Shown in pieces: positions 28,259 through 51,500 of a stretch of DNA of 64,000 nt. Position 1 is the first letter of the stretch; the number at the start of each line of letters is the position of its first letter. Under the pieces are notes generated by a model, which was not told the origin of the DNA, searched no databases, and saw only the letters and a program-made list of their open reading frames with translations. A program made the position numbers and the translations under genes. Origin of the DNA: Gimesia fumaroli (GTDB taxonomy: Bacteria > Planctomycetota > Planctomycetia > Planctomycetales > Planctomycetaceae); assembly GCF_007754425.1 (NCBI RefSeq), contig NZ_CP037452.1, forward strand, positions 4,811,164 through 4,875,163. The letters are read 5' to 3'.

Positions 28259-31200
28259 TCAAGGCATGATCAGGTCTCCGAGATCCACCGTCTCACCCGG
28301 CTGTGGAATTACTGGAGCGAACGCGGTGCCGATTGTAGGTCGCGTAGCATGCTGGTTAGTCATCCTGACGAACTCGCCGCGTACTTCGACATCTGGTAGA
28401 ACCACTAGTGAAAATTCTCCCTTTCGTTTCCCCGGTTCATCCGTTGTCATATTCATTCGCCCTGCAACAAAGGTGTCTGGCGGCAGCCCCTGACCAGACA
28501 TGCGAATGCCGAAATCAAAGTCAGGTTGGCCTGTCTCGTCTGTGATTCGTCCGATCAACGTTGCCGCCGGTTGCATGACTACACGCAAAGGGCCGCTGGT
28601 CCATCTCGTGGAAAGCGTCCCGATCAGACCTCGTTCCGGGAGAGTGAAAACAAGAAATTCAGCGCGGTCTGGATGCAGACCATACACAGAAAACGTTGCT
28701 GGCAGATCTTGACCGTTGTACTGTTTGAGTTGCCTCTTTACCTGGGCTCCCTTGACCCGATTACCGGTAGTATCGACGAGTGTCACTTCCACTGGTGGGT
28801 CGGAATAGACGGTCGCAGTCAGCTCTAGCACGCCATCATTCTCCCGTGCGTTCGTAAATTCGACGGCTGCCAACTCGAGCTGGTCGATTGGCCGATTTTT
28901 CCAGACACCGAGTCGTTCCGTTGTGACAATCGCAGGCTGCGCAATCCGCCAGTCGTCTCCATAGGCATAACGTTCCTCTTCCAGCGTCCAATCCCTGCGT
29001 CCTGGTGCAAAGAACGCTTTGGGGTTTACCGCAGCCGGTCGGTCGGTCTTCTCACCGCGCTTGACGAGCACAGACGCGGGTCCCGTCGGCACAATTCCTT
29101 CATAGATACCGGGCGCCACACGTTTGGCATCATTGAACCGTTCCTTGATTCCAGTGTGACTAACACCGGGAATTGGTTGAACTTCAATGGAGTAAACGTC
29201 CCGGTCCACCGGATTGCCTTTCGGATCCACCAGCTTCAGCCGATACGGCACCGCCGGCGCCAGATTCACTCGGGCATCCCCACCCGGCGCAACCCGTTGG
29301 CGAAAATCAGCGTAGGGCGCTGCGAAAGATCCTGTAAACGCCAATTCGTAGCCCTGGGGATCGTTCGGCAAACCTGTCACTTCGAACCGACCATCAACGT
29401 CTGTCAGAAACCGCTGTCCTGACAGCCCACTCCTGGCATTGTGATTTGCCAGCGCGACGATCACGCCCGCCGCCGCTTTTTGATTTGCCCCCCACCCGGA
29501 GGTAACTTGTCCTCGCAGCACGGCTCCTCGAGGTAATTCTGCTGTGAACCCCGATCCATACAGTGTCAGCGTCGGCTTGCCCTTTTCTAAAAATGGCTTG
29601 CGGTAGACCGGCTTCATCGACCGCACAGCGACGCGCAGACTCGTGGTCACCGCCTGCGGATGCGTGACTTCAATTTGCGCGATGAAGCCCTTCGGTAGTC
29701 CCGGCAGTTTGAAACGACCGTCTTCGTCTGTCGTCGCTTCCGTCTTCAGCCCCGGAAGCACTGCGGGACGAGAAAGCGCCTCGGCGTAATTGACACCCTG
29801 AAACAGCGCCAGCTCATCTTCCTCTTTGGGAATATGCACGTCGAGGTCATACTCAAGGGGCGCCATCAAGCCTGTAAGTCGAACGAGGGCACCAGCCAGA
29901 GGCGTCCCTCCCTCTAGAAGAAACTGCCCCGTCAGCGTTTCCGGCGGTCGTGTCCGCAAAACCACTTCGCGATTTGGATGTGGGTACCAGTGCGATCGTA
30001 CGCTACGGTCTTCTCCCCACGTCTTGAGCCACCCTGGTGTAACGCCCATTTTTGTCGCCACCAGCAGAGTTTCCCACCGCTTTCGGTCTCCGCCTGATGT
30101 GACCCAAGTCAGGTCGTCCGCATGAAATTCGAATCGCCCTTGTGTATCCGTCATCGCTCGCACGGGACCAAGTTCTGCAGCACTTGCTTTCGCAGCATTG
30201 GCCAGTTCCAGTAATTCAATCGTACTCGCGGCGTAGATCGCTGCGCCCACCAGAGGTTTTCCATCCGGCCCCAGTACAACACCGCGGTGCAATGTTGGGT
30301 TCTCAGAATCGACCAGCGGTCTGCCAGTCCAGCTTATGTTCGCATTTGGCAACAAACTCTCGACCACCTTTGGTTCAGCGACTTTCAATTTGGTGACAGT
30401 CTGATTTGTGACGGCGACCACTCGAGTCGTTCCTGCTAGAATTGCAAGCCCCAAGAAACTCGTCGCAACCGTCCAGCGCACCGACTGCCCCATTCGTGTT
30501 CTTCGATCACGTCGAACGTCCAGCACTCCCATTACGCGGTGTTCCAGTTCACCGCGCCGGATGATCGAAGGGGCAAGCTGAACCGCATTGGTTCGCCGGC
30601 TTCTCACCTGCTCCGCCACTGCCAGTAATGTCAATCCATATGCAGCAGGATCCCGCCTCGCCAGCACCGCGTTGTCACACAGTTCCTCACGTGCACGATA
30701 TAGTTCCCGGTTAAGTAAATGCACCGTGATGATCGGCCAATAGGCGGCCGCAGTAATGCCTTGCAACAATAAAATCCAGTGGTCACCTCGCAGGAGGTGC
30801 TCTGCTTCGTGGTCCAGCACATCCTGCAGTTCGTCCGGCTGAACTTCTTCGCGAAATCCGAGAGGCAAAACAATCGCCGGTCTTCCGAATCCAATCGCCA
30901 GCGGCACCGCCACATCAGCGACCAGTATGCGAATGCCATTGTGTGCCACGCCAATTTCGATACCCCGCCGTCTGACTCGCTGAATCCCGATCAGACTGGT
31001 GATTATTCGAAACAACATGGCGCAGGTAACAAAAGCATAGACCACTATTGCACAAGACCTTGCCCAAACCCACATGGTTGTTGCAGCAGATTCATTAAGT
31101 GTCGACTGACTCAATCCGTTCGACTGGGTAGACGACACCGCTTCACGGTCAACGGTTGTCAGTTGACTGTGATAATACTCCGATTCTTCCTGTTTCTTGA

Positions 31201-31534
31201 TCGTTTTAACGTTCTCTTGAGCTACAACCACCTTAGACAAACGCGCATCGCCATCTTCGGTTTGATTGCGCAGTGGCACACTCTCTTCAATTGGCTGATG
31301 CCTTAATGGAGGAAGGGTTTCTTCTGAATCCATTGAGCTCGAATTGCTCGAACTCGGTATTTCCAGTAACGTCCAGTCCGATTCTGATCGGATTTTCAAT
31401 ACCATTGGCAGAAGCAGGCATGTCACAAGAGCGGTTGTTAAAATGAGATGCCGCCGTGCCGCTGAGTTCGAAAATGCCAGGCTAAACAGCCAACCAGCGG
31501 TCGATACTAGCGCCACCCCGATCAAAACCACCAT
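28259..31534 (-). CDS. M56 (BlaR1-type) membrane peptidase with long carboxypeptidase-regulatory-like ectodomain
   Basis: The 1091-aa protein begins with BlaR1/MecR1-type topology: helices near residues 4-20, 30-47 and 157-183, a gluzincin zinc motif HEAEH (242-246) with a downstream REELCD glutamate (about 283), and a fourth helix at 354-375. In place of a penicillin-binding sensor, residues about 415-1091 contain several carboxypeptidase-regulatory/CnaB-like beta-sandwich repeats (GVVLGPDGKPLVGAAIYAAS, GRFKLPGLPKGFIAQIEV, GRFEVTGLPNDPQGYELAF). It should be a membrane sensor-protease that cleaves its BlaI partner, encoded 83 bp upstream. A GGGGAG site precedes the ATG. The ligand is unknown, and no beta-lactamase lies beside it. 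Confidence 0.9.
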   Translation of the reverse strand: MVVLIGVALVSTAGWLFSLAFSNSAARRHLILTTALVTCLLLPMVLKIRSESDWTLLEIPSSSNSSSMDSEETLPPLRHQPIEESVPLRNQTEDGDARLSKVVVAQENVKTIKKQEESEYYHSQLTTVDREAVSSTQSNGLSQSTLNESAATTMWVWARSCAIVVYAFVTCAMLFRIITSLIGIQRVRRRGIEIGVAHNGIRILVADVAVPLAIGFGRPAIVLPLGFREEVQPDELQDVLDHEAEHLLRGDHWILLLQGITAAAYWPIITVHLLNRELYRAREELCDNAVLARRDPAAYGLTLLAVAEQVRSRRTNAVQLAPSIIRRGELEHRVMGVLDVRRDRRTRMGQSVRWTVATSFLGLAILAGTTRVVAVTNQTVTKLKVAEPKVVESLLPNANISWTGRPLVDSENPTLHRGVVLGPDGKPLVGAAIYAASTIELLELANAAKASAAELGPVRAMTDTQGRFEFHADDLTWVTSGGDRKRWETLLVATKMGVTPGWLKTWGEDRSVRSHWYPHPNREVVLRTRPPETLTGQFLLEGGTPLAGALVRLTGLMAPLEYDLDVHIPKEEDELALFQGVNYAEALSRPAVLPGLKTEATTDEDGRFKLPGLPKGFIAQIEVTHPQAVTTSLRVAVRSMKPVYRKPFLEKGKPTLTLYGSGFTAELPRGAVLRGQVTSGWGANQKAAAGVIVALANHNARSGLSGQRFLTDVDGRFEVTGLPNDPQGYELAFTGSFAAPYADFRQRVAPGGDARVNLAPAVPYRLKLVDPKGNPVDRDVYSIEVQPIPGVSHTGIKERFNDAKRVAPGIYEGIVPTGPASVLVKRGEKTDRPAAVNPKAFFAPGRRDWTLEEERYAYGDDWRIAQPAIVTTERLGVWKNRPIDQLELAAVEFTNARENDGVLELTATVYSDPPVEVTLVDTTGNRVKGAQVKRQLKQYNGQDLPATFSVYGLHPDRAEFLVFTLPERGLIGTLSTRWTSGPLRVVMQPAATLIGRITDETGQPDFDFGIRMSGQGLPPDTFVAGRMNMTTDEPGKRKGEFSLVVLPDVEVRGEFVRMTNQHATRPTIGTAFAPVIPQPGETVDLGDLIMP

Positions 31535-31617
31535 GGATTATCTCCCCTTCACGTGATAACTGAAACATCTCATCAGGAAGCCCATCTGTCCTTATAGTGT
31601 GATCCAACAGAACACGA

Positions 31618-32001
31618 TCAGCCGTTTTTCAAACGACCACCTTTCGCCTCTTTCAACATCTTGCGAATCCGTTCTAATTCCCCCGGACGCAGCCCACGGT
31701 AATCTAATAGTGCGGCGACTAACGTTTCCGTCGACCCGCCACAGAAGGAATCGACCAGCTCTTGTACCTTACGACCAATCGTCTCCTCTCTTGGGTGCGC
31801 GGCACGGTACACAAACGTACGTCCAACCTCACGGTGCGTCACCCAGCCTTTCTCTTCCATTCGCTCTAACAATGTGCGGACAGTATTGCGGGCCACGTCA
31901 CGTGATAACGCGTCGCGCGCTTCCCTTGCGGTCACCTCGCCGCGATCCCAGACAATTTCCATCACCTCGCGCTCCGCCGCGGATAACTCCGTGATTTTCA
32001 T
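31618..32001 (-). CDS. BlaI/MecI-family transcriptional repressor
   Basis: The 127-aa repressor has the BlaI winged helix (SAAEREVMEIVWDRGEVTAREA, NTVRTLLERMEEKGWVTHRE, GRTFVYRAAHPREE) and the C-terminal dimerisation helices (VQELVDSFCGGSTETLVAALL). BlaI dimers bind palindromic operators and are released by cleavage by the partner M56 protease. The expected cleavage zone between the wing and the dimerisation domain is present. It precedes the M56 gene in the same orientation. Two matching operators overlap its own promoter, indicating autorepression. AAAGGAACTGAG precedes the ATG. Confidence 0.95.
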   Translation of the reverse strand: MKITELSAAEREVMEIVWDRGEVTAREARDALSRDVARNTVRTLLERMEEKGWVTHREVGRTFVYRAAHPREETIGRKVQELVDSFCGGSTETLVAALLDYRGLRPGELERIRKMLKEAKGGRLKNG

Positions 32002-32023
32002 CTCAGTTCCTTTCCCTTAACAG

Positions 32024-32036
32024 CTACGCTATGTAG
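32024..32036 (-). promoter_or_regulatory. BlaI-type operator, downstream copy
   Basis: The sequence CTACGCTATGTAG is a CTAC-N5-GTAG palindrome lying just downstream of the predicted -10 element, over the likely transcription start of the blaI-M56 operon. It is 22 bp centre to centre from the second copy, and both are followed by the same CCAT. The motif resembles known BlaI/MecI boxes (TACA/TGTA halves). Confidence 0.75.
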
Positions 32037-32038
32037 CC

Positions 32039-32067
32039 ATCATGACTACACTTCGTAGCCATGTCAA
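32039..32067 (-). promoter_or_regulatory. Promoter of the first blaI-M56 operon
   Basis: On the minus strand a perfect -35 box TTGACA (32062-32067) is followed by a 17-bp spacer and a -10-like CATGAT (32039-32044), 38 bp upstream of the blaI start codon. The position relative to the two operators fits a negatively autoregulated promoter. Confidence 0.7.
32046..32058 (-). promoter_or_regulatory. BlaI-type operator, upstream copy in the promoter spacer
   Basis: The sequence CTACACTTCGTAG (CTAC-N5-GTAG) lies entirely within the 17-bp spacer between the -35 and -10 elements. Repressor bound here would exclude RNA polymerase. Confidence 0.78.
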
Positions 32068-32313
32068 TCTCACAATATCAGTTAAGTCTCAAATCGGTCA
32101 CCGACTGCCTGCGCTATTTCGCAGATCATGTTTCCTTTGCGTCATTTAAACCATTTTTGTGGTCACGGAATATTACTCCTGCAGCAGGAGTTTTTCTGGA
32201 ATCTCAAAATACAGTCGTTTAAAATATGATGTTCCCTGTGCGGGATATTGATCCTCCGCATCGAATTATAATTTATAATCTGTCACATCCATTTCACTCA
32301 GTGAGGGCTCCAC

Positions 32314-33747
32314 ATGGGTTTATGGGATTTATTAACCAAACCGATCAAACTCACCTCTGCCCTCTTCTACTGGCATGAACCGATGCTGTACCGCTTAAAA
32401 TTGCGGGGAGACCTGCTGGTTCGCTGTGTTTTTGCCCTGTCCGTCTGGGCGGCAGCCAGCGGCATCTTTTGCCTGCTGTTCGCCTTTAATGGCAATCCGC
32501 CCGGAATCGAGCTCTCCTTTCTTATGGGCGCCATCCTCGGTTTAGGTCCCGCCTTCCTGGCGATGTTTTTTCGCCGTGATCATGTCTCCGGTACTCTCTG
32601 GGTTTACGATGATCATATTCTCCGCCAGCGGTCGTATGTCTCGCTCGGTTTTTTCCGCTCCTGGTCCGAAATGCAAGAATGGCCCAACGAATGTATCTCG
32701 CGCTGTTTGATCATTCCCGACCGGGCGCTAGGACGATCGTTTTCTGTCATGCTGCTAAGCGTGGACTCTCGTGCTGAGATCGTTGGCATTCCGAGTAAGA
32801 TCAAGCTCAAGGAACTGGCCCGCCACTTCACTGAATCTGGCATTCCCGTGGAAAAACGGGATTCCCTGCCTGACCGCTACTCCCAGGGATTCGATCTCAA
32901 AGCGACCGCCGCGATGGCCCTGATCGGCGTTCTCCTGCTATCGGTTGGATTGGGATTTCACTTCGAACGTGTTCCACAGCCCGGAAATCAAATCGCCGTC
33001 CGAGAGAAGGCTCCCGACCTGCAGCCCGATTTTCCTCAGCCGCAAATCCCTGTAAATCCAGTTCCAAACCCGATCGCGCCGAATCCCATTGCGCCAGACA
33101 ATGAACCGACTGAAAAAAACAAAACGCCTCCCTCCACCCCTGGAAAACCGAATACCGGTCTGCCCAACATCATGCCAAATCGCGCCGGAGTGCCTCCCAA
33201 CGGATTTCCAAATCGATTTCCCAACAGACCGGGAGGTCCACCTTCACAACCGGATATCCCCACCGCAAAACCAAACCCGAATACAACGACAAACGAAAAC
33301 GCTGCCAGTAAGCGCAACGATTCAAAACTCATCGGTAATCCAGAGGGAGGTTTCCCGTTCCGCATGGTCAACGGTGAGGAAAAAACACTGCTCGGTTTCC
33401 AATATGCGATAGGCAGCTGGGCCGGCGAACCAGCGATTCGAACTTTGAATCCGCTTTACGATCAAGCCGCTGCCCCACGTCCCGGCACAACTATCATCGC
33501 GAAGGAAGGCTACGCCGTCGGTGGCTTGAAGATCGACGCCCCCAAGTACGTCAGCGCCGTTCAAATCATCTTCCAGCGCATCAAACCCGACGGCCAGCTC
33601 GACCCGGCAGACACTTACACCAGCGAATGGATCGGCCAGCCTTCCCAAAAAGAAGTGCCGACCATAGAAGGAAAAGGAGAAAAAGCCACCGGCATCCACG
33701 GCCGCCGCGGCGCTATTATCGATGCGCTGGGGCTGGTGTTTGAGTGA
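32314..33747 (+). CDS. Membrane protein with Pro/Asn-rich linker and C-terminal beta domain
   Basis: The 477-aa protein has two N-terminal membrane helices (LVRCVFALSVWAAASGIFCLLFAF and SFLMGAILGLGPAFLAMFF), a small cytoplasmic domain (about 90-185) and a third helix (TAAMALIGVLLLSVGLGFHF). A low-complexity extracytoplasmic linker (about 230-335) follows, with repeated N-P units such as NPIAPNPIAP and PNRFPNRP. The C-terminal 130 residues form a beta-rich domain ending in GIHGRRGAIIDALGLVFE, reminiscent of jacalin-like or similar planctomycete modules. No catalytic motif is evident. It is divergent from the BlaI operon. A binding or sensing role is plausible but unproven. Confidence 0.72.
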   Translation: MGLWDLLTKPIKLTSALFYWHEPMLYRLKLRGDLLVRCVFALSVWAAASGIFCLLFAFNGNPPGIELSFLMGAILGLGPAFLAMFFRRDHVSGTLWVYDDHILRQRSYVSLGFFRSWSEMQEWPNECISRCLIIPDRALGRSFSVMLLSVDSRAEIVGIPSKIKLKELARHFTESGIPVEKRDSLPDRYSQGFDLKATAAMALIGVLLLSVGLGFHFERVPQPGNQIAVREKAPDLQPDFPQPQIPVNPVPNPIAPNPIAPDNEPTEKNKTPPSTPGKPNTGLPNIMPNRAGVPPNGFPNRFPNRPGGPPSQPDIPTAKPNPNTTTNENAASKRNDSKLIGNPEGGFPFRMVNGEEKTLLGFQYAIGSWAGEPAIRTLNPLYDQAAAPRPGTTIIAKEGYAVGGLKIDAPKYVSAVQIIFQRIKPDGQLDPADTYTSEWIGQPSQKEVPTIEGKGEKATGIHGRRGAIIDALGLVFE

Positions 33748-33897
33748 GAGACCAGATAGCCCCAGCCCTAATCGATGCCGTTAATGTCTAGCCCAATCGG
33801 TTCTAATCGATCGGATCATCGTTCAGAGTTCCGCTTTTCCCGATTCGAATTACGTAACCAATACGTCTTCTTTTATCGCTCCTCCCGCAATCTATTC

Positions 33898-33926
33898 TTG
33901 ACAAAAGCTCTAAAACTAACCATAAA
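33898..33926 (+). promoter_or_regulatory. Candidate sigma-70-type promoter
   Basis: A perfect -35 TTGACA (33898-33903) and a CATAAA -10 (33921-33926) are separated by 17 bp. They lie about 75 bp upstream of the start codon at 34002. Confidence 0.55.
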
Positions 33927-34001
33927 TTCACTAGCGCAACCATGACTGAGTAACACCAAGCTCATGCACTCCGATATGGGCCGGTATGTGGGGAGACTAA
34001 T

Positions 34002-34586
34002 ATGAATGCGATGTTGTTACCTCTACTCTTGTTCTGCGACGTCGGCACTGATATACCTGAGATCGTGTTTGACAACCGCCCCGAGAGCGGCGTACCACGT
34101 GAAGCCCGGGATCAAGATCGGACGGGCTCACTGACTCGCGAAGAGTTGAAAGCACTCTATGCCACCTTGACCGCTCAGGAAACAATTGATCGATGGCCAA
34201 TTAAGTTTCACAACGCTATGAGTACGATCAAGAGGGTTCGAATCCGCTATTTCAACAAAGAGACGTGGAAGACTGAAAAACAGGCCCGCGAGTACGTTCG
34301 CGGCTTTCTTGCCAACAAGTCATCAGAAGTTTACAGTTTTCAGATTTGGTCGCAAGGAGTCGGTATACCAGAGATCGATTGTCTGGTTGATTTTACCGAC
34401 GAATACCGGAAGGAACTTATCGACAAACGAAAGCCGATTAGCACAGGTCGGCTGCTCATCTGGAATGGTGAAGCATGCTTTCGCGATGCCACCAGTAGAT
34501 GGTGGTTTGTGACGATCTACAATCACTATCACAGGGCACATCCCAAGGGAGATCGCACGCTCGCAAAGCCAAAGAAACCCAAGTGA
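34002..34586 (+). CDS. Hypothetical protein
   Basis: I do not recognise this 194-aa protein. The first 12 residues (MNAMLLPLLLFC) are hydrophobic and could be a short or degenerate export signal. The remainder is soluble and basic, ending in KPKKPK. Aromatic-rich strands (RRVRIRYFNKETWK-like, RLLIWNGEACFRDATSRWW) recall outer-membrane lipoprotein-carrier-like beta sheets used by planctomycete secreted proteins, but the similarity is only impressionistic. GGGGAG precedes the ATG, and a good promoter lies upstream. Confidence 0.65.
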   Translation: MNAMLLPLLLFCDVGTDIPEIVFDNRPESGVPREARDQDRTGSLTREELKALYATLTAQETIDRWPIKFHNAMSTIKRVRIRYFNKETWKTEKQAREYVRGFLANKSSEVYSFQIWSQGVGIPEIDCLVDFTDEYRKELIDKRKPISTGRLLIWNGEACFRDATSRWWFVTIYNHYHRAHPKGDRTLAKPKKPK

Positions 34587-34684
34587 AAGGTCATACAAAA
34601 AGAGCCTTTGTCACGATATCCATCTTAACTTTCTAAGTTTTGAAAACTGATTCAACGGACAATCTTATAATCAAGGATGTCGCA

Positions 34685-35881: not shown

Positions 35882-35961
35882 CGGACCAGGCAACTATGGA
35901 TAGATCAGAATTGATGAAGCACAATTAAAATTAATAACGCAACTCACTTAGGCCCACTCTT

Positions 35962-36639: not shown

Positions 36640-36732
36640 TTTTCAAGGGAAACGTCCTACTCGAAGGCTTGTCAGACTGCGCCCGAGAACAAAAGACTTG
36701 CTGCAGCATTCTTAAACTTCTTAAGCAAAATC

Positions 36733-36776
36733 GAGACATACTGCGGCACGAGTTGTCCTGTACCGCAGTGTGTCTC
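36733..36776. terminator. 14-bp hairpin between convergent genes
   Basis: GAGACATACTGCGG (36733-36746) pairs with CCGCAGTGTGTCTC (36763-36776) with a single non-Watson-Crick position around a 16-nt loop. It sits between the exported Nudix gene and the minus-strand isomerase-like gene and probably serves both. Confidence 0.65.
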
Positions 36777-36787
36777 TAACATCTGGC

Positions 36788-40527: not shown

Positions 40528-40568
40528 TGCGGCAAGTATTCTCAAATCAACCTTGCCGGTGTGACTGT

Positions 40569-41876: not shown

Positions 41877-41937
41877 TGGATCATCGAACGGAAGCATGTG
41901 AAAAAGCAGACTCCCTCCAAGGCGATTGAATATACTT

Positions 41938-42714
41938 TTATTCTTCCAGCAGTTTAACTTCACCGGTCTGCATATTGTAAATGCCGCCGACGATTTTGAT
42001 CTCGCCTTGATCTTCCATCTCTTTCAAGATCGGACTGTTGATTCTGATGCGATCGATGGTCCCCAGAACATTCTGCGCCGTGACCATCTTGACGAACTCG
42101 GGATTCTGGCTCGTTCTGTCCCCTTTGTACTCTTTAAAGTGATCGACGGCTGGTTGGATATTGGCCAGCATGGCGGTGATGTTGCCTAGTTCAACGCCGT
42201 CAATCGCCCCATTCACAGCGCCACAGCTCTCGTGGCCCAGCACAAAGACCAGCTTGGAACCGGCGACTTTACAGGCAAATTCCATACTGCCCAGGATGTC
42301 GGTGTTTTCAAAGTTACCGGCCACGCGGGCGACGAAAATATCGCCAATGCCGCGATCGAAAACATCTTCCACGGGAACCCGCGAATCGAGACAGGACAGA
42401 ATGACCGCTTTGGGATACTGCCCGAGCGCCGCTTCACGCACCTGTTTGGAATGATCGCGGGCCGTCAGTGTTCCCTCAACGAAACGTTGATTCCCTTCTT
42501 TGAGCAGCGTCAGCACCTGGTCTGGTGTGAGCGCGTTCTGCTCCTCTTGTGTTAAAACGCGATTGACCAGGGGTTTGACATCCACTTCGATTTCCCCATC
42601 AGTCTTATTGGAAGTCTTGGTGGCAGAGGGCTGTTTATTATTTTGCGTACAACCCGTCAGGATTAAAAAGCCAAGGCAACAGGCCAGCATCGGGTTCAGA
42701 ATCATTCTGGTCAT
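41938..42714 (-). CDS. Beta-class carbonic anhydrase, predicted lipoprotein
   Basis: The 258-aa protein has a lipoprotein signal (LACCLGFLILTGC, lipid-modified cysteine about residue 22) followed by a beta-carbonic anhydrase. Zinc ligands and partners are C108-x-D110-x-R112 (SCLDSRVP) and H161-x-x-C164 (GHESCGAV). The substrate-gating RVAGNFENTDILGSMEFA segment is present. It should interconvert CO2 and bicarbonate outside the cytoplasmic membrane. The start at 42714 is chosen because the preceding frame (to 42765) does not improve the signal peptide and AAAAGG lies upstream. Monocistronic. Confidence 0.92.
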   Translation of the reverse strand: MTRMILNPMLACCLGFLILTGCTQNNKQPSATKTSNKTDGEIEVDVKPLVNRVLTQEEQNALTPDQVLTLLKEGNQRFVEGTLTARDHSKQVREAALGQYPKAVILSCLDSRVPVEDVFDRGIGDIFVARVAGNFENTDILGSMEFACKVAGSKLVFVLGHESCGAVNGAIDGVELGNITAMLANIQPAVDHFKEYKGDRTSQNPEFVKMVTAQNVLGTIDRIRINSPILKEMEDQGEIKIVGGIYNMQTGEVKLLEE

Positions 42715-42916
42715 TTTCGTTTTACCTTTTATTATATTGGCCGATTGTGAATATGGTGTTCGCATGATGTAACCGTTTTGAACCCTAGCACACGGCGATA
42801 AGATGAAAAGCAGAGTTCCATGGAATATCAGAAAAATACGGATTCAAATCCAGAACGAAAAGCACAGACACTACAGACGGACCTGCTCTTCTGGATTCAT
42901 TTCTCTTTTTCCTGGC

Positions 42917-42946
42917 TTGACAAATTTAGCTCCTTATCACCACTAT
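42917..42946 (+). promoter_or_regulatory. Candidate promoter of the UPF0261/TIM-barrel/EthD operon
   Basis: TTGACA (42917-42922) is followed after 18 bp by CACTAT (42941-42946), a fair -10 match. It lies about 60 bp upstream of the first gene's start at 43007. Confidence 0.4.
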
Positions 42947-43006
42947 GAACAATCAGTTGAGCGAAAATCCGATTGAGAGAGTGAAATGCCTCAGGGAGGA
43001 AACCGC

Positions 43007-44227
43007 ATGCGAAAAGCCATCTATGCGCTCGGCACAATGGATACCAAAGCAGATGAACTCTGCTTTGTGGCCGACTGTATTCGCCAAACGGGGCTGGACG
43101 TCGTGCTGATCGATTTGAGTACGCGTGGCAGTTCGGACCGCGCCGATATTGCTGCAAACACCATTGCCCAGTCACATCCTCAAGGATCAGAGAGCGTACA
43201 GGAACAAACCGACCGGGGTCAGGCAGTGACTGCGATGTCCGAAGCATTGCGAGAATGGTTGCCCTCTGAAGTCAGCTCGAAAAACGTGGCCGGTGTAATC
43301 GCGATTGGCGGCAGCGGCGGAACTGCGATCGTGGCGCCCGCGTTTCAGGCACTTCCAATCGGCCTTCCGAAACTCATTGTATCGACCGTCGCCAGTGGCA
43401 ACACACAACCTTATGTCGGATCGAGCGACATTACCATGATGTATTCGGTCGTTGATGTCGCAGGACTCAATTCCGTCTCGCGGCGAGTGTTGAGCAATGC
43501 TGCGCATGCGATTGCCGGGATGGTCGCGAACGCACGCGACTTCCCCGAAGACCGCCCCGCCCTGGGCATGACGATGTTCGGTGTGACGACGCCTTGTGTC
43601 GATATGGTGCGCGAAGCGCTGGAAGCAAAGGGCTTTGATCCCCTGGTCTTTCACGCGACCGGCACCGGAGGTCAGGCGATGGAAAAACTGGTTGCTGATG
43701 GCCTGATTTGTGGCGTGCTCGATATCACGACGACGGAAGTCGCCGACGAAGTCGTCGGAGGTATTATGCCCGGAGGGCCGCGTCGGTTCGACGTCATCCT
43801 CGAGCGGGGCATTCCCTATGTGATGAGTCTGGGTGCCCTCGACATGGTCAACTTCGGTGCGCGTGAGACGATTCCCAATAAATTCGTTGACCGCAAGTTT
43901 CTGATTCACAATCCACAAGTGACACTGATGCGAACCACGGTCGACGAAAACCGGCAGATGGCACAATGGATCGCCTCGAAAATCAACCGCTCAACAGCTC
44001 CCGTGGAAATCCTGATTCCGGAACGAGGCGTCTCAATGCTCGACGCCGAGGGCGAAGCCTTCTATGATCCCACAGCAGACCAGTGTCTGTTCGACACATT
44101 AGAGCAGGAAGTCCAGCAGTCCGACGAACGTCGCATCTCCCGTTATCCCTGCCACATTAACGATGCCGTGTTCGCCGCAGCGCTCGTTGAAGCTTTCGAA
44201 CGAGTATGCGGCGACCGATTCCAATAA
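43007..44227 (+). CDS. UPF0261 (Tm-1-like N-terminal domain) protein
   Basis: The 406-aa protein is a full-length UPF0261/Tm-1-like ATP-binding protein: [20 protein letters not shown] at the N-terminus, the glycine-rich [38 protein letters not shown], and [14 protein letters not shown] with [12 protein letters not shown]. In plants the same domain is the N-terminal half of the tomato Tm-1 resistance protein; the bacterial role is not established. The ATG at 43007 follows GGGAGGAAACC. It is the first gene of a three-gene operon; the intergenic distance to the next gene is 26 bp. Confidence 0.92.
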
Positions 44228-44253
44228 AGAGACACAACACAAGGAGCCCACAC

Positions 44254-45090
44254 ATGTCTGAATCGAGAGCAGCGATCCTGAAGCGGCTGCGTGAGAAAGT
44301 CGCTGACGGTAAACCGATCATTGGCGGCGGAGCCGGTACGGGATTGAGTGCGAAATGCGAAGAAGCCGGTGGCATCGATCTGATTGTGATCTACAATTCG
44401 GGCCGCTACCGCATGGCGGGCCGCGGTTCACTTTCGGGACTGATGCCTTACGGCAATGCGAATGAGATTGTCAAAGACCTGGGACGTGAGGTGATTCCCG
44501 TCGTTGAAAAAACGCCTGTCTTAGCAGGCGTCTGCGGCACCGATCCGTTTCTGATTCGGAATCTGTTCCTCAAAGAACTGCAGGCAATGGGTTTTGCCGG
44601 CATCCAGAATTTTCCGACCGTCGGATTGATTGATGGTCAGTTCCGCGCCAACCTGGAAGAGACCGGCATGGGCTTCGACCTGGAGATCGATTGTATCCGA
44701 GCCGCTCATGATCTGGATCTGCTCACAACCCCTTACGCGTTTGACGCCGATCAGGCACAGAAACTGACGGCTGCCGGTGCAGATATTGTTGTCGCTCACA
44801 TGGGACTGACCACCGGCGGTACCATCGGCGCTGCAACCGGCAAAACGCTCGACGATTCGGTCGCAGCAATCCGCACGATGGTCGACGCCGCCAAGAGCGA
44901 ACGGGGTGATGTGTTGCTGCTCTGTCACGGCGGCCCGATCGCCATGCCCGAAGATGCACAATATATCTTTGATCGCGTCGCAGGCATCGACGGGTTCTAT
45001 GGTGCCAGTTCCATGGAACGCCTGCCGACAGAAGTTGCGATGACCGCACAGGTCCGCCTGTTCGGCGATCTGAGTTTACTCAAAAAATAA
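44254..45090 (+). CDS. TIM-barrel protein of the phosphoenolpyruvate hydrolase-like/Tm-1 C-terminal family
   Basis: The 278-aa protein matches the TIM-barrel family annotated as PEP hydrolase-like (PF09370): [78 protein letters not shown] and the C-terminal [14 protein letters not shown]. In plant Tm-1 this domain is fused behind UPF0261; here it is a separate gene directly downstream. I chose the ATG at 44254 because CAAGGAGCCC precedes it; an upstream in-frame ATG at 44206 overlaps the previous gene. The enzymatic activity is unknown. Confidence 0.9.
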
Positions 45091-45133
45091 ACCCAGCCGC
45101 TTTTTTCTCAACGACTTAACACAGGAATTCAAT

Positions 45134-45466
45134 ATGTATCGCTTAACTGTAATGTACGGACACCCTGAAGACCCTGCCGAATTTGACCGCTATTACAACG
45201 AGGTGCATATTCCGTTGGCAAAGAAAATGAAAGGACTCACCGGCTGGACGATTGGCAAATGCATCTCCGCAGAAGCGGGCAATCCCGCGCCCTATTATCT
45301 GATCGTCAGCCTCTATGCTGAATCTGCAACAGCGATGCAGGCAATTCTGGAAAGCCCCGAAGGTCAGGAAACAATCGCAGATGTTCCGAATTTCGCTACC
45401 GGAGGGGTGATGTTCATGTATGATGAGGAAGAGGTTTTGATCCCGCTGAACCTGGAGTCCCCCTGA
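45134..45466 (+). CDS. EthD-family small protein
   Basis: The 110-aa protein has the EthD/dimeric alpha-beta-barrel pattern: MYRLTVMYGHPEDPAEFDRYYNEVHIPLAKKMKGL, with the HIPLA motif, and a second strand-helix unit (YLIVSLYAESATAMQAIL). EthD-like proteins are ferredoxin-fold dimers associated with oxidative catabolism of ethers and other compounds. It follows the TIM-barrel gene by 43 bp on the same strand, after CACAGGAATT, so it is probably part of the same transcript. A joint small-molecule catabolic role is plausible. Confidence 0.85.
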   Translation: MYRLTVMYGHPEDPAEFDRYYNEVHIPLAKKMKGLTGWTIGKCISAEAGNPAPYYLIVSLYAESATAMQAILESPEGQETIADVPNFATGGVMFMYDEEEVLIPLNLESP

Positions 45467-45555
45467 GTCGACGCACCTCGGTTGCGTTTCCCTTGATTCC
45501 CCGCTTATAGCGAAAAGAACGTTCATTGATTCACTCCCTGGAAGGTCATTAAAAC

Positions 45556-47124
45556 ATGAGTTCTGCTCTTACGTCTCTCCGCTTGGAAATCAGCTTACCG
45601 CTACTGCTCCTGACCCTATTTCTGCAAACGACAACAAATGCAGCCCAGAAGCCGAATATCGTTTATATACTTGCTGACGATCTCGGCTATGGAGATGTGA
45701 GTTGCTATAACGCCGAATCAAAAATTAAAACGCCTCATATTGATCGGCTGGCAGCGGAGGGGATGAAATTCACCGACGCGCACACGCCATCCGCCGTCTG
45801 CACGCCCACCCGTTACGGCATTCTCACGGGAAGGTATTGCTGGCGGACGCGGTTGAAATACCGTGTACTGGACGGTTTTGATCCGCCACTGATTGAACAG
45901 GACCAGACAACCGTTCCCTCACTGCTCAAACAAGCTGGCTACGATACTGCTTGCATCGGCAAATGGCACTTGGGTATGCAGTGGACCGACAAAAATGGAC
46001 AGCCTGTGCCCGCGGTTCCCATCGATCGGCGTCAACGTCCTCGTATCGGCGATGACGTCGATTACACGAAACCGATCACTGGCGGCCCGCTGGCGAACGG
46101 CTTTGACTATTACTTCGGCATCTCGGCTTCGCTGAATATGTCCCCTTTCTGTTTTATCAAAAACGATCGGCCCGTGATCCTCCCCACAATTCCATCGGAA
46201 CGGATTTCGACCGAATTTCTCTCGGTCGACCAAGGCATGCGTTCACCCGATTTTACAATCCGCAGTGTGATGCCGACGCTGACCGGAGAGGCGGTGCAAT
46301 TTATAGAACGGTATTCGCAAGCATCGCCCGAGCGGCCCTTCTTTCTCTACTTTCCGCTCACCGCGCCGCATCTGCCGCTGGTGCCCAACGACGAATTCCG
46401 CGGCAAAAGCGCCGCCGGCGAATACGGCGATTTTGTACTCGAAGTCGATGCGACCGTCGGAGCGATCATGGAAGCACTAAAGCGTACTGGCGTGGCGGAG
46501 AACACACTGTTTATCTTCACGTCTGATAACGGCGGCCTGTATCACTGGTGGATTCCCAAAGAAACAGATGACCTGAAATATTACAAGCCGAACCACCGGG
46601 GGCAATACGTCAAAGACCGCGGCCATCAGGGCAATGCGCATCTCCGCGGAACCAAAGCCGACATCTGGGAAGGCGGCCACCGGGTCCCCTTCATCGTCCG
46701 CTGGCCCGGCAAAACACCGGCTGACTCGAGCAATGACGAACTGGTCGAACTGACAGACCTGCTGGCAACCTGTGCCGCGATCACAGATCAGAAGTTACCC
46801 GCCGGCGCGGGCGAAGACAGCGTCAATATTCTCCCGGCTCTATTGGGTAAGAAAAACGAGAAACCACTACGCGACTACGCCATCCATCATTCGCTCTGGG
46901 GACACTTTGCGGTCCGCCAAGGCCCCTGGAAAATGGCTCTCAAACGAGGTTCCGGCGGCTTCACCCGCGCCCGCGAAGTCAATCCCGCACCAGGCGAACC
47001 AACGGGCCAGCTTTACAACCTCAGAAACGATCCCTCAGAAACGAAAAACGTCTGGAACGAACACCCCGAAGTCGTCGAACGCCTGTCGTTGATCCTGAAG
47101 AACGTTCAGGGCGAGGATAAATAA
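45556..47124 (+). CDS. Exported arylsulfatase-type sulfatase
   Basis: The 522-aa enzyme has a signal peptide (LPLLLLTLFLQTTTNAA) and all type I sulfatase elements: metal aspartates D41/D42 (ILADDLGYGD), C82-T-P-T-R for formylglycine conversion, GKWHLG, and the SDNGG motif. The FGly motif implies activation by an FGE. It should hydrolyse sulfate esters of extracellular polysaccharides, as is typical for marine planctomycetes. GAAGGT precedes the ATG. It is convergent with the giant M56 gene, with 26 bp between the stop codons. Confidence 0.95.
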   Translation: MSSALTSLRLEISLPLLLLTLFLQTTTNAAQKPNIVYILADDLGYGDVSCYNAESKIKTPHIDRLAAEGMKFTDAHTPSAVCTPTRYGILTGRYCWRTRLKYRVLDGFDPPLIEQDQTTVPSLLKQAGYDTACIGKWHLGMQWTDKNGQPVPAVPIDRRQRPRIGDDVDYTKPITGGPLANGFDYYFGISASLNMSPFCFIKNDRPVILPTIPSERISTEFLSVDQGMRSPDFTIRSVMPTLTGEAVQFIERYSQASPERPFFLYFPLTAPHLPLVPNDEFRGKSAAGEYGDFVLEVDATVGAIMEALKRTGVAENTLFIFTSDNGGLYHWWIPKETDDLKYYKPNHRGQYVKDRGHQGNAHLRGTKADIWEGGHRVPFIVRWPGKTPADSSNDELVELTDLLATCAAITDQKLPAGAGEDSVNILPALLGKKNEKPLRDYAIHHSLWGHFAVRQGPWKMALKRGSGGFTRAREVNPAPGEPTGQLYNLRNDPSETKNVWNEHPEVVERLSLILKNVQGEDK

Positions 47125-47150
47125 ACGGGTCTTCTGTTTTCCATGATTCA

Positions 47151-50100
47151 CTAATCAACTGGTTTGAGCAGGACATTCAGTGTTACGTCTTTGGTGTAGC
47201 TCCCGTCCGCGCCCGATGTAATCAGTTTAACTTTCTGATGTCGCGTTTCAAATCCCGGATAAGTGGCAGTCATTTCGTATGTTCCCGGTGTTCCGACGAA
47301 ATGCTGCCTTTCATTCTGCTGGCTATGTCGTGAGATTGTGCCAGTCGCACTTTCCAGTTGAATTTCACATCCCGGTAAGGGAACACCATTTTCGGTGAAG
47401 ACCTTAATCACTCGAAAACCAGGTTTGGGAGAGGGTTTCTTGATCAGTTCAGGCGTCAGATTTAACGTTTTTTCTTCATTCTTTTTCAGAGAGAACTGAA
47501 GTAACTTTTTTGAATCGCGAACGTCCTGCTCTGTCAGAAAATAGTCCCCTGCGGGAAGATGATCGACTGTAAATTTTCCCTGCTCGTCCGGCAAGACCCG
47601 ACTCATCAGCCGTTTATCCTCACTCCATAATTTGAGCCAGATGACTTTCGCCGGTCCAGACAGTTCTTTATCGAGGCTGCCGCGCAGAGTTGCCGTCCCC
47701 TCTGGCAACGCTAACGTTATACTGGCATTCTGATTTTTCGGTGTGATCTTAATTTTCTGAAAGACAGTCGGATAACCGGGCCGCGAAGCAACAAGTTCAT
47801 ATTCCCCCAATGGAACCTGAGTATAAACAAAGGGAGCGCTGTTATTACTCCGCGGCTTCAGGATTCCCGTGTACAAGCCAAACGTCCAGACGGGGTTATA
47901 AGTCTGAAGTTTCAATCGCATGTTTTCGGTAGCCGCAGGTGTGCATTTTACAGTAAGTTGACCAATCTTCTGATCTATGGTGCCGAGATCTTGATCTTCC
48001 GCGAGCAACTGGAATGAATTGACTCGTACCCAATCATTGGGTCGCTTGGGAACAGCATAGTACAAGGTACGTTCAGCAGGACCAGCGCCATAGAAGGTAA
48101 AACCGCCATCGCTGCCGGTGACTGTATAAGCACGAAAGATGCCAGAATTCGGACTCTCGCCGGCCAACAGCAGTCGCGTATTCGCCAGTGGCTCGCCATT
48201 AACTTTCAACAGACCTGATACTTTGGGGCGACCGCCTAAATTGAGAGTGCTGGTCTGACCATTCTGAGGCAGAATGGTCTGCCGAACAACGCCATTAGAA
48301 GTCCATTCCTCGGCGCTAATCACATAACACATCACTTCGGGCAGATGAGAGACCGTATACTCACCTCTTTCATCCGTAACCACGGTCGCAAAAAGTCCGG
48401 CCTGACTGGCTGTATCACCATTATAAGTATTCTGATCCCGGAAAAATAACGTCACATTCGGTTCCGGCTGGCCTGCTGCATTCGTAACGAGCCCTTTAAC
48501 AGTGCCGCCACGTTTGAGAGTAATCTTGACGTCAGATACCGGACTGGCTCTGAGATCAATCTCTTCGACAATTGCAAAAGCATAGTCCGGGTGAGTGACT
48601 TTCAAGGACTCTTTTTCGAAACCAAGGTGCTTGAGCGTAAATTTCCCATCAACGGTTTTTGTAGCCCCGTCCTCTGTTGTAAACGCTCCTGATGTCCTTT
48701 GAGAAACACCTCTGGCCTTAGAGAGTGGAATTACCGTCGCACCATCGACCGGCTGTCCCTTCTCATCAATTACCGTTCCGGAAAGCGTTACCCCCTCTGT
48801 CAGTTTAATCTGAATCGGTTTCCCTTGGTTTGTGTCGGTATTGATCGGTTCGCTGAGAGCTGCCGCAAAACCAGATGCGGCAACCTGGACCACATAGATC
48901 CCTGGTCCACTGACTTCGAGTTCGAATTTCCCGTTCTCGTTATCGACATCCAACCAGCGGGAACTCTGCACGAAATTAGGACCGCGTAAAGTGCGGGACT
49001 TGATCGCGCGAACCTGGTACTTTTTGACTGGCTGAGAAGAATCGCCGCGTACGACCGTGCCCAGTAACTTCGGTTTCCCCTTTATCACCACATCCAGCTT
49101 GATCTCTTTCGCGGGAGCGAACACTGTGTAGCTGCCACCTTTCAATTCAAGTCCGGGAGATGCTATCCTGAGCTTATATTTACCACGTTGAATCGGATCC
49201 AAACGGAATTCTGTCTTACCCGGTTGAATATATGCACTGCCATGACGCTGTGGGTCATCAGAATTCGCGTAAAGCCAGAATCCACGCTGCGGCTGCCCAT
49301 TACCTGAATAATGAATCTGACCGGATATTGAGACCAGGGATGCCGGGGAAGGATAATTCAGTTTCAGTGAGAGTGGCTGTTTCTGCTGCAAAAGGTCCGT
49401 GGAACTGAGTACCGATTTAAAGGAAAAGAGCCGGTCACCCGATGGGACGGAAACCGAAACGTTGTATTTCTCTGCAACAATATGCGAAAGTGTAAATGAT
49501 CCATCTTTGCTAATTTCATAACCAGACGGATAACTACCAAATTTCCACCAGTCGGGGAGTGCGTTAATTTTCCAACCGGCAGGAGGTTTTCCATCCGAAC
49601 AGAGGACCTTACCCGTCACGCTGATCCCCTTCTGAAGCACGAATAGTGGCGATGTAATTTTATTTGGATCATCCAGCTTAATCATAACTTTTTCAAAACC
49701 ATAATCGGGAGACGAGGTAGCGATTATGTATTTGAATTTTGAAGGCTTCAAACCAAGCGTCGCTTGACCGTATCGATCGGTGCTGACGGTTTCAGGACTG
49801 AAACCACTTGTGTCTGTCACTAATTTGGCATAAACACGCGCTCCGGCGACAGGTTTACCTTCCTCATTTAAGACATCAATACGTACCTGGCAGGCTCGTT
49901 CGAGTGTGATATCCTGTATCGTCTTCGAATCGTCTGTGAGTGTCACTAGAGGACAATCAGAACTGCGTTCGATCCCCACCCAACGCTTTGACTTGATCAT
50001 GATTCGATGCTGACCTGGCTTATTAATCATTGAGAACTGATAGCGTCCTTCCTGATCCGTTTTTTCACGAATCAATCGCCCGCCATTACGATGGAGAAGT

Positions 50101-51500
50101 GTCACCTCAGCATCGGTCACAGGCGAGCCGGTATCGTCAACAATGCGTCCACTGAGAATGCCTTGCGGGGCAGAAGGTTCTTTCTGCGTTTTGTTCTGTT
50201 CCGTCCGAACAATCTCTTTCGGAGGCGGCACCGTCTCTTTTGTATTTTTCGTATTCTTAACCGCGGGTGATTTTTTCTTTTGTACCACAGGCTCATCAGC
50301 GGCGTGAGAACGATCCAATCTGGACATCGGCAGAAGCAAGACGCCGGTGAGCATGACCATAGCCAAACCGACAAACCCCAGCCTGGCAGACCGGGGAATC
50401 GGTCGCGAGATAATTCGTCGAATCCGCTGCGCCAGTGGTTTACGAGGTTCAAGAATGCCAATCAATTGTAAGCTGACCTTGCCTGGAAGCGAGGTCAGCG
50501 CCGCAATATCCAATAAGGTTGATGAGTACTGCTCGGACTTCACATTCAAGGTCACCAGCACGGTTTCATCAACGGCCTGCTCTCGTAATCGCCTGAGAAT
50601 CACATGCGCAACCCAGACCATCGGATTATAAAAATAAAGAATTAACAGCAGGGTCTGGAAACAGTTTATTTGTAAATCGTAGCGTTTCCAGTGCGCCAGT
50701 TCATGAACGAAAACCTGGCGCAACTGTTCCTGGTTCAATTGATCCAGCAGTTGTCTGGGAAGCACAATCGTTGGTTTCCACAGTCCGCATATGGCCGGAC
50801 TGCCTGCACCGTCAAATATTTTCAATTGCACAACCCCCTGCTTTACTCCAATCAGGCGACAACAGTCATTCAGCAATGACAATGCCTCGACGGATGCCGA
50901 CTCTGCCTGTTGTGTGAGTTGCCGGACCCGTCGTGTACGCAGGGCAACGAAGACACACAGGACCGCCACACCGGACAACCAGAATAGCAAAAGTATTGCC
51001 GCTGGTTCAGGAGAAACCAGTGGAACGGACATTGCGTTCTCAGGTTCGCCACTGGGGAGTGAGGAAACAGGTGAGATACCAGTTTCTGCTGCGGGCTGCA
51101 GCACTGGTTCGGGGAGTAATCGATTGACCGGTTCAACAGCAAACGGTCGGTCTGTTATGAAAGATTTTTCTGGTGAGATCTCTGGTTGGATAGTTTCCGT
51201 CCCACTCAGTACAACTTCGGTAGAAATTTCAGCGCTGGTCGCAGCAGGTAGATAGTCTGCCAACCAGTAGGCAGCACTCGCAGGCGAGGATAGTGTAACC
51301 GGTAGAACGAGCTTGAGCAGTACCAATGACCAGAGCCAATACCGGGTCACGGCGCGAATTTTGTTGCGTAAAACTAAATCGGCCAGCAGGAGAATGATTA
51401 CCAGTACACAGACCTGTGCGAACATCACCGTGCTGAAGTTCCAGAAACTCCCGCCATACTCATTGAGCAAAGTCGTCATTTCATTCCATGCTTCAGTCAT
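47151..51500 (-). CDS. Giant M56 (BlaR1-type) peptidase with serial carboxypeptidase-regulatory/Ig-like repeats
   Basis: The 1449-aa protein has the BlaR1-type membrane protease part: helices near residues 27-44, 54-70 and 168-187, a zinc motif HELAH (266-270) with a downstream REQAVDE glutamate, and a fourth helix near 381-399. The remaining 1000 residues form a serial array of at least eight carboxypeptidase-regulatory/CnaB-like beta domains (GRIVDDTGSPVTDAEVTLLH, SGTVIDEKGQPVDGATVI, KGLVTNAAGQPEPNVTLFF, SGLLKVNGEPLANTRLLLA). These presumably lie outside the membrane. The BlaI partner lies 30 bp upstream. I chose the ATG at 51500 over the TTG at 51521. No penicillin-binding sensor is present. 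It is convergent with the sulfatase gene. Confidence 0.9.
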   Translation of the reverse strand: MTEAWNEMTTLLNEYGGSFWNFSTVMFAQVCVLVIILLLADLVLRNKIRAVTRYWLWSLVLLKLVLPVTLSSPASAAYWLADYLPAATSAEISTEVVLSGTETIQPEISPEKSFITDRPFAVEPVNRLLPEPVLQPAAETGISPVSSLPSGEPENAMSVPLVSPEPAAILLLFWLSGVAVLCVFVALRTRRVRQLTQQAESASVEALSLLNDCCRLIGVKQGVVQLKIFDGAGSPAICGLWKPTIVLPRQLLDQLNQEQLRQVFVHELAHWKRYDLQINCFQTLLLILYFYNPMVWVAHVILRRLREQAVDETVLVTLNVKSEQYSSTLLDIAALTSLPGKVSLQLIGILEPRKPLAQRIRRIISRPIPRSARLGFVGLAMVMLTGVLLLPMSRLDRSHAADEPVVQKKKSPAVKNTKNTKETVPPPKEIVRTEQNKTQKEPSAPQGILSGRIVDDTGSPVTDAEVTLLHRNGGRLIREKTDQEGRYQFSMINKPGQHRIMIKSKRWVGIERSSDCPLVTLTDDSKTIQDITLERACQVRIDVLNEEGKPVAGARVYAKLVTDTSGFSPETVSTDRYGQATLGLKPSKFKYIIATSSPDYGFEKVMIKLDDPNKITSPLFVLQKGISVTGKVLCSDGKPPAGWKINALPDWWKFGSYPSGYEISKDGSFTLSHIVAEKYNVSVSVPSGDRLFSFKSVLSSTDLLQQKQPLSLKLNYPSPASLVSISGQIHYSGNGQPQRGFWLYANSDDPQRHGSAYIQPGKTEFRLDPIQRGKYKLRIASPGLELKGGSYTVFAPAKEIKLDVVIKGKPKLLGTVVRGDSSQPVKKYQVRAIKSRTLRGPNFVQSSRWLDVDNENGKFELEVSGPGIYVVQVAASGFAAALSEPINTDTNQGKPIQIKLTEGVTLSGTVIDEKGQPVDGATVIPLSKARGVSQRTSGAFTTEDGATKTVDGKFTLKHLGFEKESLKVTHPDYAFAIVEEIDLRASPVSDVKITLKRGGTVKGLVTNAAGQPEPNVTLFFRDQNTYNGDTASQAGLFATVVTDERGEYTVSHLPEVMCYVISAEEWTSNGVVRQTILPQNGQTSTLNLGGRPKVSGLLKVNGEPLANTRLLLAGESPNSGIFRAYTVTGSDGGFTFYGAGPAERTLYYAVPKRPNDWVRVNSFQLLAEDQDLGTIDQKIGQLTVKCTPAATENMRLKLQTYNPVWTFGLYTGILKPRSNNSAPFVYTQVPLGEYELVASRPGYPTVFQKIKITPKNQNASITLALPEGTATLRGSLDKELSGPAKVIWLKLWSEDKRLMSRVLPDEQGKFTVDHLPAGDYFLTEQDVRDSKKLLQFSLKKNEEKTLNLTPELIKKPSPKPGFRVIKVFTENGVPLPGCEIQLESATGTISRHSQQNERQHFVGTPGTYEMTATYPGFETRHQKVKLITSGADGSYTKDVTLNVLLKPVD

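Follow-up and report, generated by a model that had tools for sequence, protein, structure and literature searches.

A BlaR1-type receptor and repressor circuit with beta-repeat outer arms and a probable non-beta-lactam input in Gimesia fumaroli

What does a BlaR1-type receptor respond to when the penicillin-binding sensor on its outer side is replaced by a long chain of beta-repeats? This question is raised by two gene pairs in a 64,000-nucleotide (nt) stretch of Gimesia fumaroli DNA, hereafter the window, which covers 4.81-4.88 Mb of a 7.70-Mb single-contig genome. The two M56 genes under study are M10 (28259..31534, minus strand), which encodes a receptor-protease of 1091 amino acids (aa) matching Peptidase_M56 (PF05569) with E=4.4e-19 and 69 bits, and M11 (47151..51500, minus strand), which encodes 1449 aa from an ATG at 51500 and matches the same family with E=2e-40 and 139 bits (Pfam cut-off 31). 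An earlier note on this DNA had described both as M56 proteins of these lengths with an HExxH motif, and the Pfam matches and catalytic residues bear this out. It had also spoken of a cognate BlaI; a BlaI is indeed present, but there are two, one per receptor. These are blaI10 (31618..32001, minus strand; 127 aa) and blaI11 (51531..51935, minus strand; 134 aa), which match Penicillinase_R (PF03965, cut-off 22.6) with E=1.5e-32 and 112.7 bits and with E=2e-30 and 105.9 bits, and which precede their M56 genes on the same strand by 83 and 30 nt, respectively. The blaI11 open reading frame (ORF) reaches 51965; its start was set at the ATG at 51935, which is preceded by AAAAGGAGG, and a 134-aa ORF with the same start is found in five of eight Gimesia orthologs and in G036, a genome of another genus. 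The transcription units are predicted to consist of blaI and the M56 gene alone. On the evidence of their sequences, the two units appear to be a genuine version of the BlaR1-BlaI circuit in which beta-lactams are not the input.

The likeness to BlaR1 is clearest in the protease core. A profile of 21 M56 cores, comprising 20 of the 21 modules of the genome and that of G036 (M09, whose gene crosses the window start, was omitted), matched residues 4-323 of Staphylococcus aureus BlaR1 (8exp), the closest solved homologue, with E=1.5e-24, and the alignment spans the transmembrane (TM) helices and the cytoplasmic gluzincin protease. Among the catalytic and coupling residues of BlaR1 named in PMC9834060, the equivalents of H201, E202, H205, D246 and R294 are present in all 21 aligned rows, those of E242 and Y261 in 20 and that of D210 in 18. 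M10 and M11 have all eight intact, including the HExxH...E...D zinc site and the equivalent of Arg294, which in S. aureus BlaR1 belongs to the swapped-dimer contact. On the repressor side, a 22-row BlaI profile (the genome's own 21 and G036) matched MecI (1okr) with E=8e-31 and BlaI (1sd4) with E=8e-30. The S1' residue of BlaR1, Ile265, is Leu in 20 of 21 M56 rows, and at the P1' position of BlaI, which is Phe102 in S. aureus, 14 of 21 repressors have Leu, three have Phe, and Ile, Met, Ala and Gln occur in one each; the aligned cut-site residues read Ala-Leu in BlaI10 and Phe-Ile in BlaI11. Because changes have occurred on both sides, these data suggest that the specificity of the protease and BlaI has shifted as a pair.

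Beyond the fourth TM helix (TM4) lie 717 residues in M10 and 1057 in M11. No penicillin-binding sensor domain is among the Pfam hits of either protein, no transpeptidase or class-D domain is among those of the 17 modules scanned whole, and the BlaR1 equivalog NF000326 scores 34.2 bits for M10 and 116.6 bits for M11 against a cut-off of 400. What Pfam does report there is CarboxypepD_reg (PF13620), with two significant stretches in M10 (E=4.9e-13) and six in M11 (E=2e-58). The M10 ectodomain (residues 375-1091; 28262..30412, minus strand) is the more divergent arm, with about six repeat starts by eye, and M11 residues 447-1449 (47154..50162, minus strand), cut by hand, aligned and described by a repeat model, form 11 tandem transthyretin/CnaB-like repeats of 86-97 aa, the majority sharing the pattern G-x-V...G-x-P...TD-x-x-G-x-F...PG-x-Y in their alignment. 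The fold was examined on one M11 repeat, which was modelled from 24 rows (13 from the window and 11 from L083) as a beta-sandwich with a predicted local distance difference test score (pLDDT) of 82.8 and a predicted template modelling score of 0.74. With the repeat model, nine solved matches were found at E<=0.001, headed by the N-terminal extension of SusC (9hfj, E=6e-5), a cohesin-dockerin chain (2b59, E=5e-4) and the transthyretin-like domain of carboxypeptidase D (5aq0, E=6e-4); the SusC and carboxypeptidase D domains share the fold of the modelled repeat (TMq 0.66-0.68). In SusC and carboxypeptidase D such domains presumably occur singly, as accessory domains, whereas M11 has up to 11 of them in tandem on a protease receptor. 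The idea that long carboxypeptidase-regulatory repeats take the place of the penicillin sensor, leaving complete receptor, repressor and operator units in which no beta-lactam sensor is found, is supported. Its companion, that the arms sense surface polymers or mechanical state, found no such backing: no evidence of ligand binding came to light, and between TM4 and the repeats lies a linker of low identity and variable length.

An extracytoplasmic position of the repeats is predicted, since the alignment with BlaR1 and the charge pattern both point outside rather than to the cytoplasm. From hydropathy and that alignment, M10 residues 1-374 (30413..31534, minus strand) would comprise four TM helices (1-19, 30-48, 161-179 and 356-374) and a cytoplasmic gluzincin domain with HEAEH at residue 242, and M11 residues 1-392 (50325..51500, minus strand) would comprise helices 25-43, 59-77, 169-187 and 374-392 with a gluzincin domain containing H266, E267, H270, E307, D311, Y325 and R359. 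Extra hydrophobic segments, some equally strong, surround the zinc motif (284-302 and 332-350 in M11; 203-221 and 253-271 in M10); BlaR1 has re-entrant helices around this motif, as described in PMC9834060. The stretch before TM4 is basic (K/R versus D/E, 7 versus 0 in M11 and 6 versus 2 in M10) and the TM2-TM3 loop acidic (3 versus 13 and 9 versus 12), while the stretch after TM4 also has some basic residues (5 versus 3 and 3 versus 2). The linker from TM4 to the repeats is about 50 residues long and varies in length; in M11 (residues 393-446; 50163..50324, minus strand) it is rich in Lys, Pro and Gln, and an Ala-Ala near its start, present in nine of nine Gimesia proteins, is a possible signal-peptidase site. 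As a general feature, a signal-peptidase motif after TM4 was considered and set aside: small-x-Ala motifs occur at 19 of 21 TM4 exits versus 9 of 21 TM2 exits, and composition-matched shuffles already give them at 16.0 of 21 TM4 exits on average, with no such motif at the TM4 exits of M10 and M14.

Upstream of each repressor gene we found a tandem pair of operator-like dyads, in support of the operators that had been proposed there. At blaI10, dyad 1 (CTACGAAGTGTAG; 32046..32058) and dyad 2 (CTACATAGCGTAG; 32024..32036), which lies 22 nt from it, both read CTAC-N5-GTAG, and dyad 1 sits inside the promoter spacer, between a -35 box TTGACA (32062..32067, minus strand) and CATGAT 17 nt away; this promoter is a consensus match only, of which one was found and 1.0 expected in shuffles. 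Related dyads lie upstream of the blaI10 ortholog in G014. At blaI11, dyad 1 (CGACAAATGTAG; 51970..51981) and dyad 2 (TCGGCAAATGTCGA; 51949..51962) are 20 nt apart and are both contained in TTGACA...CGACAAATGTAGTGTAATGTCGGCAAATGTCG, in which the -35 box is TTGACA (51985..51990, minus strand) and the -10 box probably TGTAAT (15-nt spacer) or TAATGT (17). TTGAC together with dyad 1 in the form CKACANNTGTAG is kept in 10 of 10 loci, G036 included, and dyad 2 is recognisable in all ten, more loosely than dyad 1. By eye, other modules have other dyads (TTACANNTGTAA at M19 and M21, TCTAATTAATTAGA at M13 and M18, GTGTTATT..AATAACAC at M20), and no clear dyad was seen upstream of M03, M04, M05, M08 or M17.

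Across the genome, the two M11 dyads together occur at one site at <=3 mismatches, their own promoter. The single M11 dyad is found at 10 distinct places including its own, and of the other nine, eight are within ORFs >=120 aa long and the ninth is intergenic; single dyads are not enriched genome-wide overall. The M10 pattern CTACRNNGYGTAG has seven sites, one at blaI01, two at blaI10, two at blaI16, one inside the M03 gene and one at a cytochrome-like ORF. At this last site, the dyad CTACAATGCGTAG (G000:C1:2177142-2177154; L086) stands 16 nt ahead of an ORF that contains several CxxCH motifs, as in a multihaem cytochrome, and that is a possible trans target of BlaI10, BlaI01 or BlaI16. These three repressors are mutually 51-68% identical, so cross-talk among them is possible. 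As a regulon finder, the genome-wide operator search yielded no convincing trans target.

M11 was detected in 10 of the 59 genomes searched, its own included (E<=1e-60): at full length in eight other Gimesia genomes and as a core in G036. M10 was detected in two, its own and G014 (E<=1e-40). The eight full-length orthologs have a mean identity to M11 of 61% over residues 1-395 and 63% over residues 440-1449, falling to 26% in the TM2-TM3 loop and to 23% in residues 393-440. Ratios of nonsynonymous to synonymous substitution rates (dN/dS), computed for six ortholog pairs, were 0.13-0.29 in the arm, 0.10-0.15 in the main protease part (residues 166-395), 0.05-0.44 in residues 1-80 (few sites) and 0.10-0.37 in the linker; for the own protein and that of G014 they were 0.10 and 0.12 in the core parts, 0.17 in the arm, 0.56 in the TM2-TM3 loop and 0.30 in the linker. 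The M11 arm is thus under strong constraint and about as conserved as the protease, and the linker is more constrained than its low identity would lead one to expect.

The two receptors that first drew attention are both real, but they are merely two of 21 such pairs. The genome holds 21 M56 and 21 blaI genes, all paired one to one on the same strand with blaI first and with gaps of -14 to +83 nt, and the distances among BlaI proteins follow those among M56 cores (Mantel r=0.69; 0 of 5000 permutations). A 130-kb region around the window contains seven of the pairs, a density reached by one of 20000 random placements for a width that was chosen post hoc. Downstream, the next gene by simple ORF selection is convergent in 14 of the 21 modules (two of these 14 ORFs, of 94 and 106 aa, may not be genes), and a same-strand gene within 100 nt follows M12 alone, which overlaps the next ORF by about 1 nt. 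The modules differ in what they carry outside, which may be nothing, beta-repeats, or propeller, secretin-like or thioredoxin domains. CarboxypepD_reg is matched at E<=0.001 by 12 of the 17 M56 proteins scanned whole (11 above cut-off); M06 (L049:7206-10274) adds to it a C-terminal AhpC/TSA thioredoxin-fold domain with CSGC, for which a redox input is possible; M08 has WD40-like and HEAT repeats and M14 a weak TPR match in the outer region; M19 and M21 have secretin-like C-terminal matches below the Pfam cut-off (L059:1901-4177; L060:8980-12381); and M15, scanned whole, has no Pfam arm match. M03-M05 (355-384 aa) are armless and were left out of the Pfam scan. They share a WSPWP tail after TM4 (L046:8004-9137, L047:7886-9040, L048:7303-8370), and a pilin-like gene and a large gene that matches the sulfatase fold stand on either side of M03 and M04.

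Relatedness of the cores is not always mirrored in the arms. M02 and M18 are 52% identical in the core and 70% in BlaI, yet their best local arm match covers 116 aa, and M01, whose core is nearest that of M16 (50%), has an arm that matches M20 better (142 versus 85 bits, best segment only). The most telling case is G036, in which BlaI11 is 75% and the M56 core 55% identical and the operator matches, and in which the 785-aa M56 fragment, cut by a contig end, has an arm of another kind that CarboxypepD_reg does not match; a search of the PDB with this ectodomain gave no match. Since BlaI, operator and core are retained there under a different arm, G036 suggests that the arm is a replaceable module and is the best single evidence for this, coming from one locus at a contig end. 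Among 98 sampled genomes of the phylum, 37 contain M56 at E<=1e-10; the source genome is the richest with 21, followed by genomes with 15, 13, 12 and 11, and 63 of 128 M56 frames outside it are at least 800 aa long (stop-to-stop lengths; 129 rows with one duplicate dropped).

We think it likely that each pair works as a protease receptor circuit of the BlaR1 type whose input is something other than beta-lactams, and we infer its course as follows. BlaI would occupy both tandem dyads, which overlie its own promoter, and repress the two-gene blaI-M56 operon, while a basal amount of M56 protein would reside in the membrane, the zinc-protease domain facing the cytoplasm and the beta-repeat arm on the outer side. 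Some event there, be it a ligand, a partner, or the arm's own loss or shedding, would lift auto-inhibition of the protease, which would cut BlaI near the Phe102 equivalent, at the Ala-Leu bond of BlaI10 and the Phe-Ile bond of BlaI11. Cleavage would then derepress the operon, and because its main product would be the receptor with its large outer arm, the circuit would mainly set the amount of receptor. The predicted output is thus chiefly the receptor operon itself; unlinked targets are possible besides.

How do other explanations fare against the same data? M10 and M11 could be ordinary beta-lactam or peptidoglycan receptors with an unrecognised sensor, as their closest solved homologue is BlaR1 itself and, to go by the title of one paper (PMC3305447), a peptidoglycan fragment reportedly triggers beta-lactam resistance in Bacillus licheniformis; the Pfam scans, the low NF000326 scores and the beta-sandwich predicted for the M11 repeat make this very improbable. 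We give equally little credence to the idea that the circuit responds to sulfated polysaccharides and that the sulfatase next to it is the output. The second M56 gene is convergent with a sulfatase, as the earlier note had pointed out (45556-47124, plus strand, ending 26 nt from the M11 end), and 6 of the 21 modules have a sulfatase-fold gene no more than 2 kb away, where rotations average 1.6 and 0.8% of 4000 reach 6. However, that distance is one of four tried (4 modules at 1.5 kb, a count reached by 4.6% of rotations; 6 at 2 kb, by 0.8%; 6 at 3 kb, by 1.8%; and 9 at 5 kb, by 0.5%), M03 and M04 among these modules are paralogues, and the genome has about 88 sulfatase genes (91 rows, three genes appearing in two rows each). 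The M11 sulfatase is moreover convergent rather than downstream; at >=89% identity it stays convergent within about 2.1 kb of M11 in seven of nine loci (in G010 it is 2062 nt away and an additional ORF intervenes), but the 18-kb M11 loci of G008 and G015 lack it. With so modest an enrichment and two of nine loci lacking it, the sulfatase was rejected as part of the system, and the proposed link is weak.

Two further explanations leave the protease and repressor as they are and move the output or the purpose elsewhere. The BlaI proteins might govern a larger unlinked regulon with the receptor operon as one target among others, much as S. aureus BlaI controls blaZ and mecA (PMC9834060), and the dyad before the cytochrome-like ORF at C1:2177142 would suit this. 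The M11 dyad pair nonetheless occurs once at <=3 mismatches, at its own promoter, five of the seven M10-pattern sites fall in the blaI01, blaI10 and blaI16 promoters, and the mapped regulon of BlaI_1845 in Clostridium thermocellum is its own blaI-blaR1 operon alone (PMC8457756), so that we regard a larger regulon as unlikely. Doubtful, but deserving somewhat more weight, is the possibility that the arm is the effector (an adhesin, a scaffold or a shed periplasmic protein) and that the protease and BlaI merely control its copy number and sense no outside signal. The convergent next genes, the long conserved repeat arm of M11, the Ala-Ala retained in a linker of low identity and the excess of small-x-Ala motifs at TM4 over TM2 exits are all in keeping with it, as is the cutting of BlaR1 by signal peptidase within the equivalent linker (PMC9834060). 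On the other side, the shuffles account for most of the TM4 motifs, M10 and M14 do without one, and the arm replacement over a retained core in G036 fits a sensor equally well.

The receptor circuit that we favour also has observations to contend with, and these weigh against it. BlaR1 Arg293 is not conserved, being Arg in 6 of 21 rows, and P1' Phe, which is almost invariant in classic BlaI (PMC9834060), is replaced by Leu in BlaI10 and Ile in BlaI11. The blaI11-M11 promoter was not among the promoter-scan hits, and reversed-pattern controls were commoner than the patterns themselves, with 25 matches versus 16 for the M11 dyad and 20 sites versus 7 for the M10 pattern, so that placement at blaI promoters alone speaks for the latter. 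The trans-target search used strict patterns, which degenerate sites would escape. An AlphaFold model of the whole M11 ectodomain from two sequences had a mean pLDDT of 37.5 and was not used, and conservation of M10 is poorly sampled (one of 58 other genomes). Lastly, extracellular loop 1 (EL1) of BlaR1 docks into the sensor and is used for signalling (PMC9834060), and its equivalent, the TM2-TM3 loop, is the least constrained part of M11 (dN/dS 0.56-0.84); signal coupling in M11 therefore probably differs from that in BlaR1.

Elsewhere in the window and around it, positions 24-857 (plus strand) contain the C-terminal part of M09, another of the blaI-M56 pairs and the third to reach into the window (M56 of 793 aa, genome start 4809639), whose last 277 aa, the part scanned, have no Pfam match and whose blaI has TTCGCT-type dyads upstream by eye; pairs M12 and M13 lie directly beyond the window (L053:1075-11578; genome 4876-4887 kb). 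A gene cluster at 41938-47124, together with a flanking gene, is kept in seven of nine Gimesia M11 loci; we take it to include two Tm-1-like genes and an EthD-like gene along with the sulfatase gene, with a carbonic-anhydrase-like gene beside it. No beta-lactamase was seen among the neighbour ORFs inspected, and no profile search for beta-lactamase was made. The window contains no tRNAs, nor tandem DNA repeats at the default score.

Because 21 repressor-protease pairs occur in one genome, they appear to serve as a platform for signalling in general and not for antibiotic resistance. We tentatively extend this, at a strength just short of probable, to Planctomycetes as a whole: M56-BlaI pairs may form a general modular transmembrane platform comparable in role to two-component systems, in which a conserved core of protease, repressor and operator receives many outer domains by replacement, operators are private to a pair or small clade and govern receptor dose, and coupling works without the EL1 latch. 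BlaR1-BlaI is known mainly as an antibiotic-resistance switch, and 21 diverse pairs with a natural sensor swap suggest that the resistance circuit is a special case of a wider protease-receptor design, for which the compact operators, predicted cut sites and natural chimaeras are testable objects for how outer domains control an inner protease. The earlier note called the system possibly undescribed; we found no paper on M56-BlaI proteins of such architecture in Planctomycetes or Gimesia in a search covering part of the literature, which leaves absence unproven. A survey of class-D (OXA) domains lists a single planctomycete sequence (PMC9045261), in line with a non-beta-lactam role.

Compared with known systems, the M10 and M11 units stand closest to BlaR1-BlaI of S. 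aureus. Staphylococcal operators are laid out as tandem dyads at the promoter, an arrangement shared by both units. S. aureus BlaR1 (8exp; PMC9834060) is likewise paired with a BlaI/MecI-family repressor. In contrast to it, M10 and M11 have a beta-repeat arm with no penicillin sensor found, a weakly constrained EL1-equivalent loop in M11, a predicted cut site with Leu or Ile for Phe, and Leu for Ile at S1'. The C. thermocellum BlaI_1845 operon, unlike those of M10 and M11, contains two further genes and is interpreted in PMC8457756 as beta-lactam responsive.

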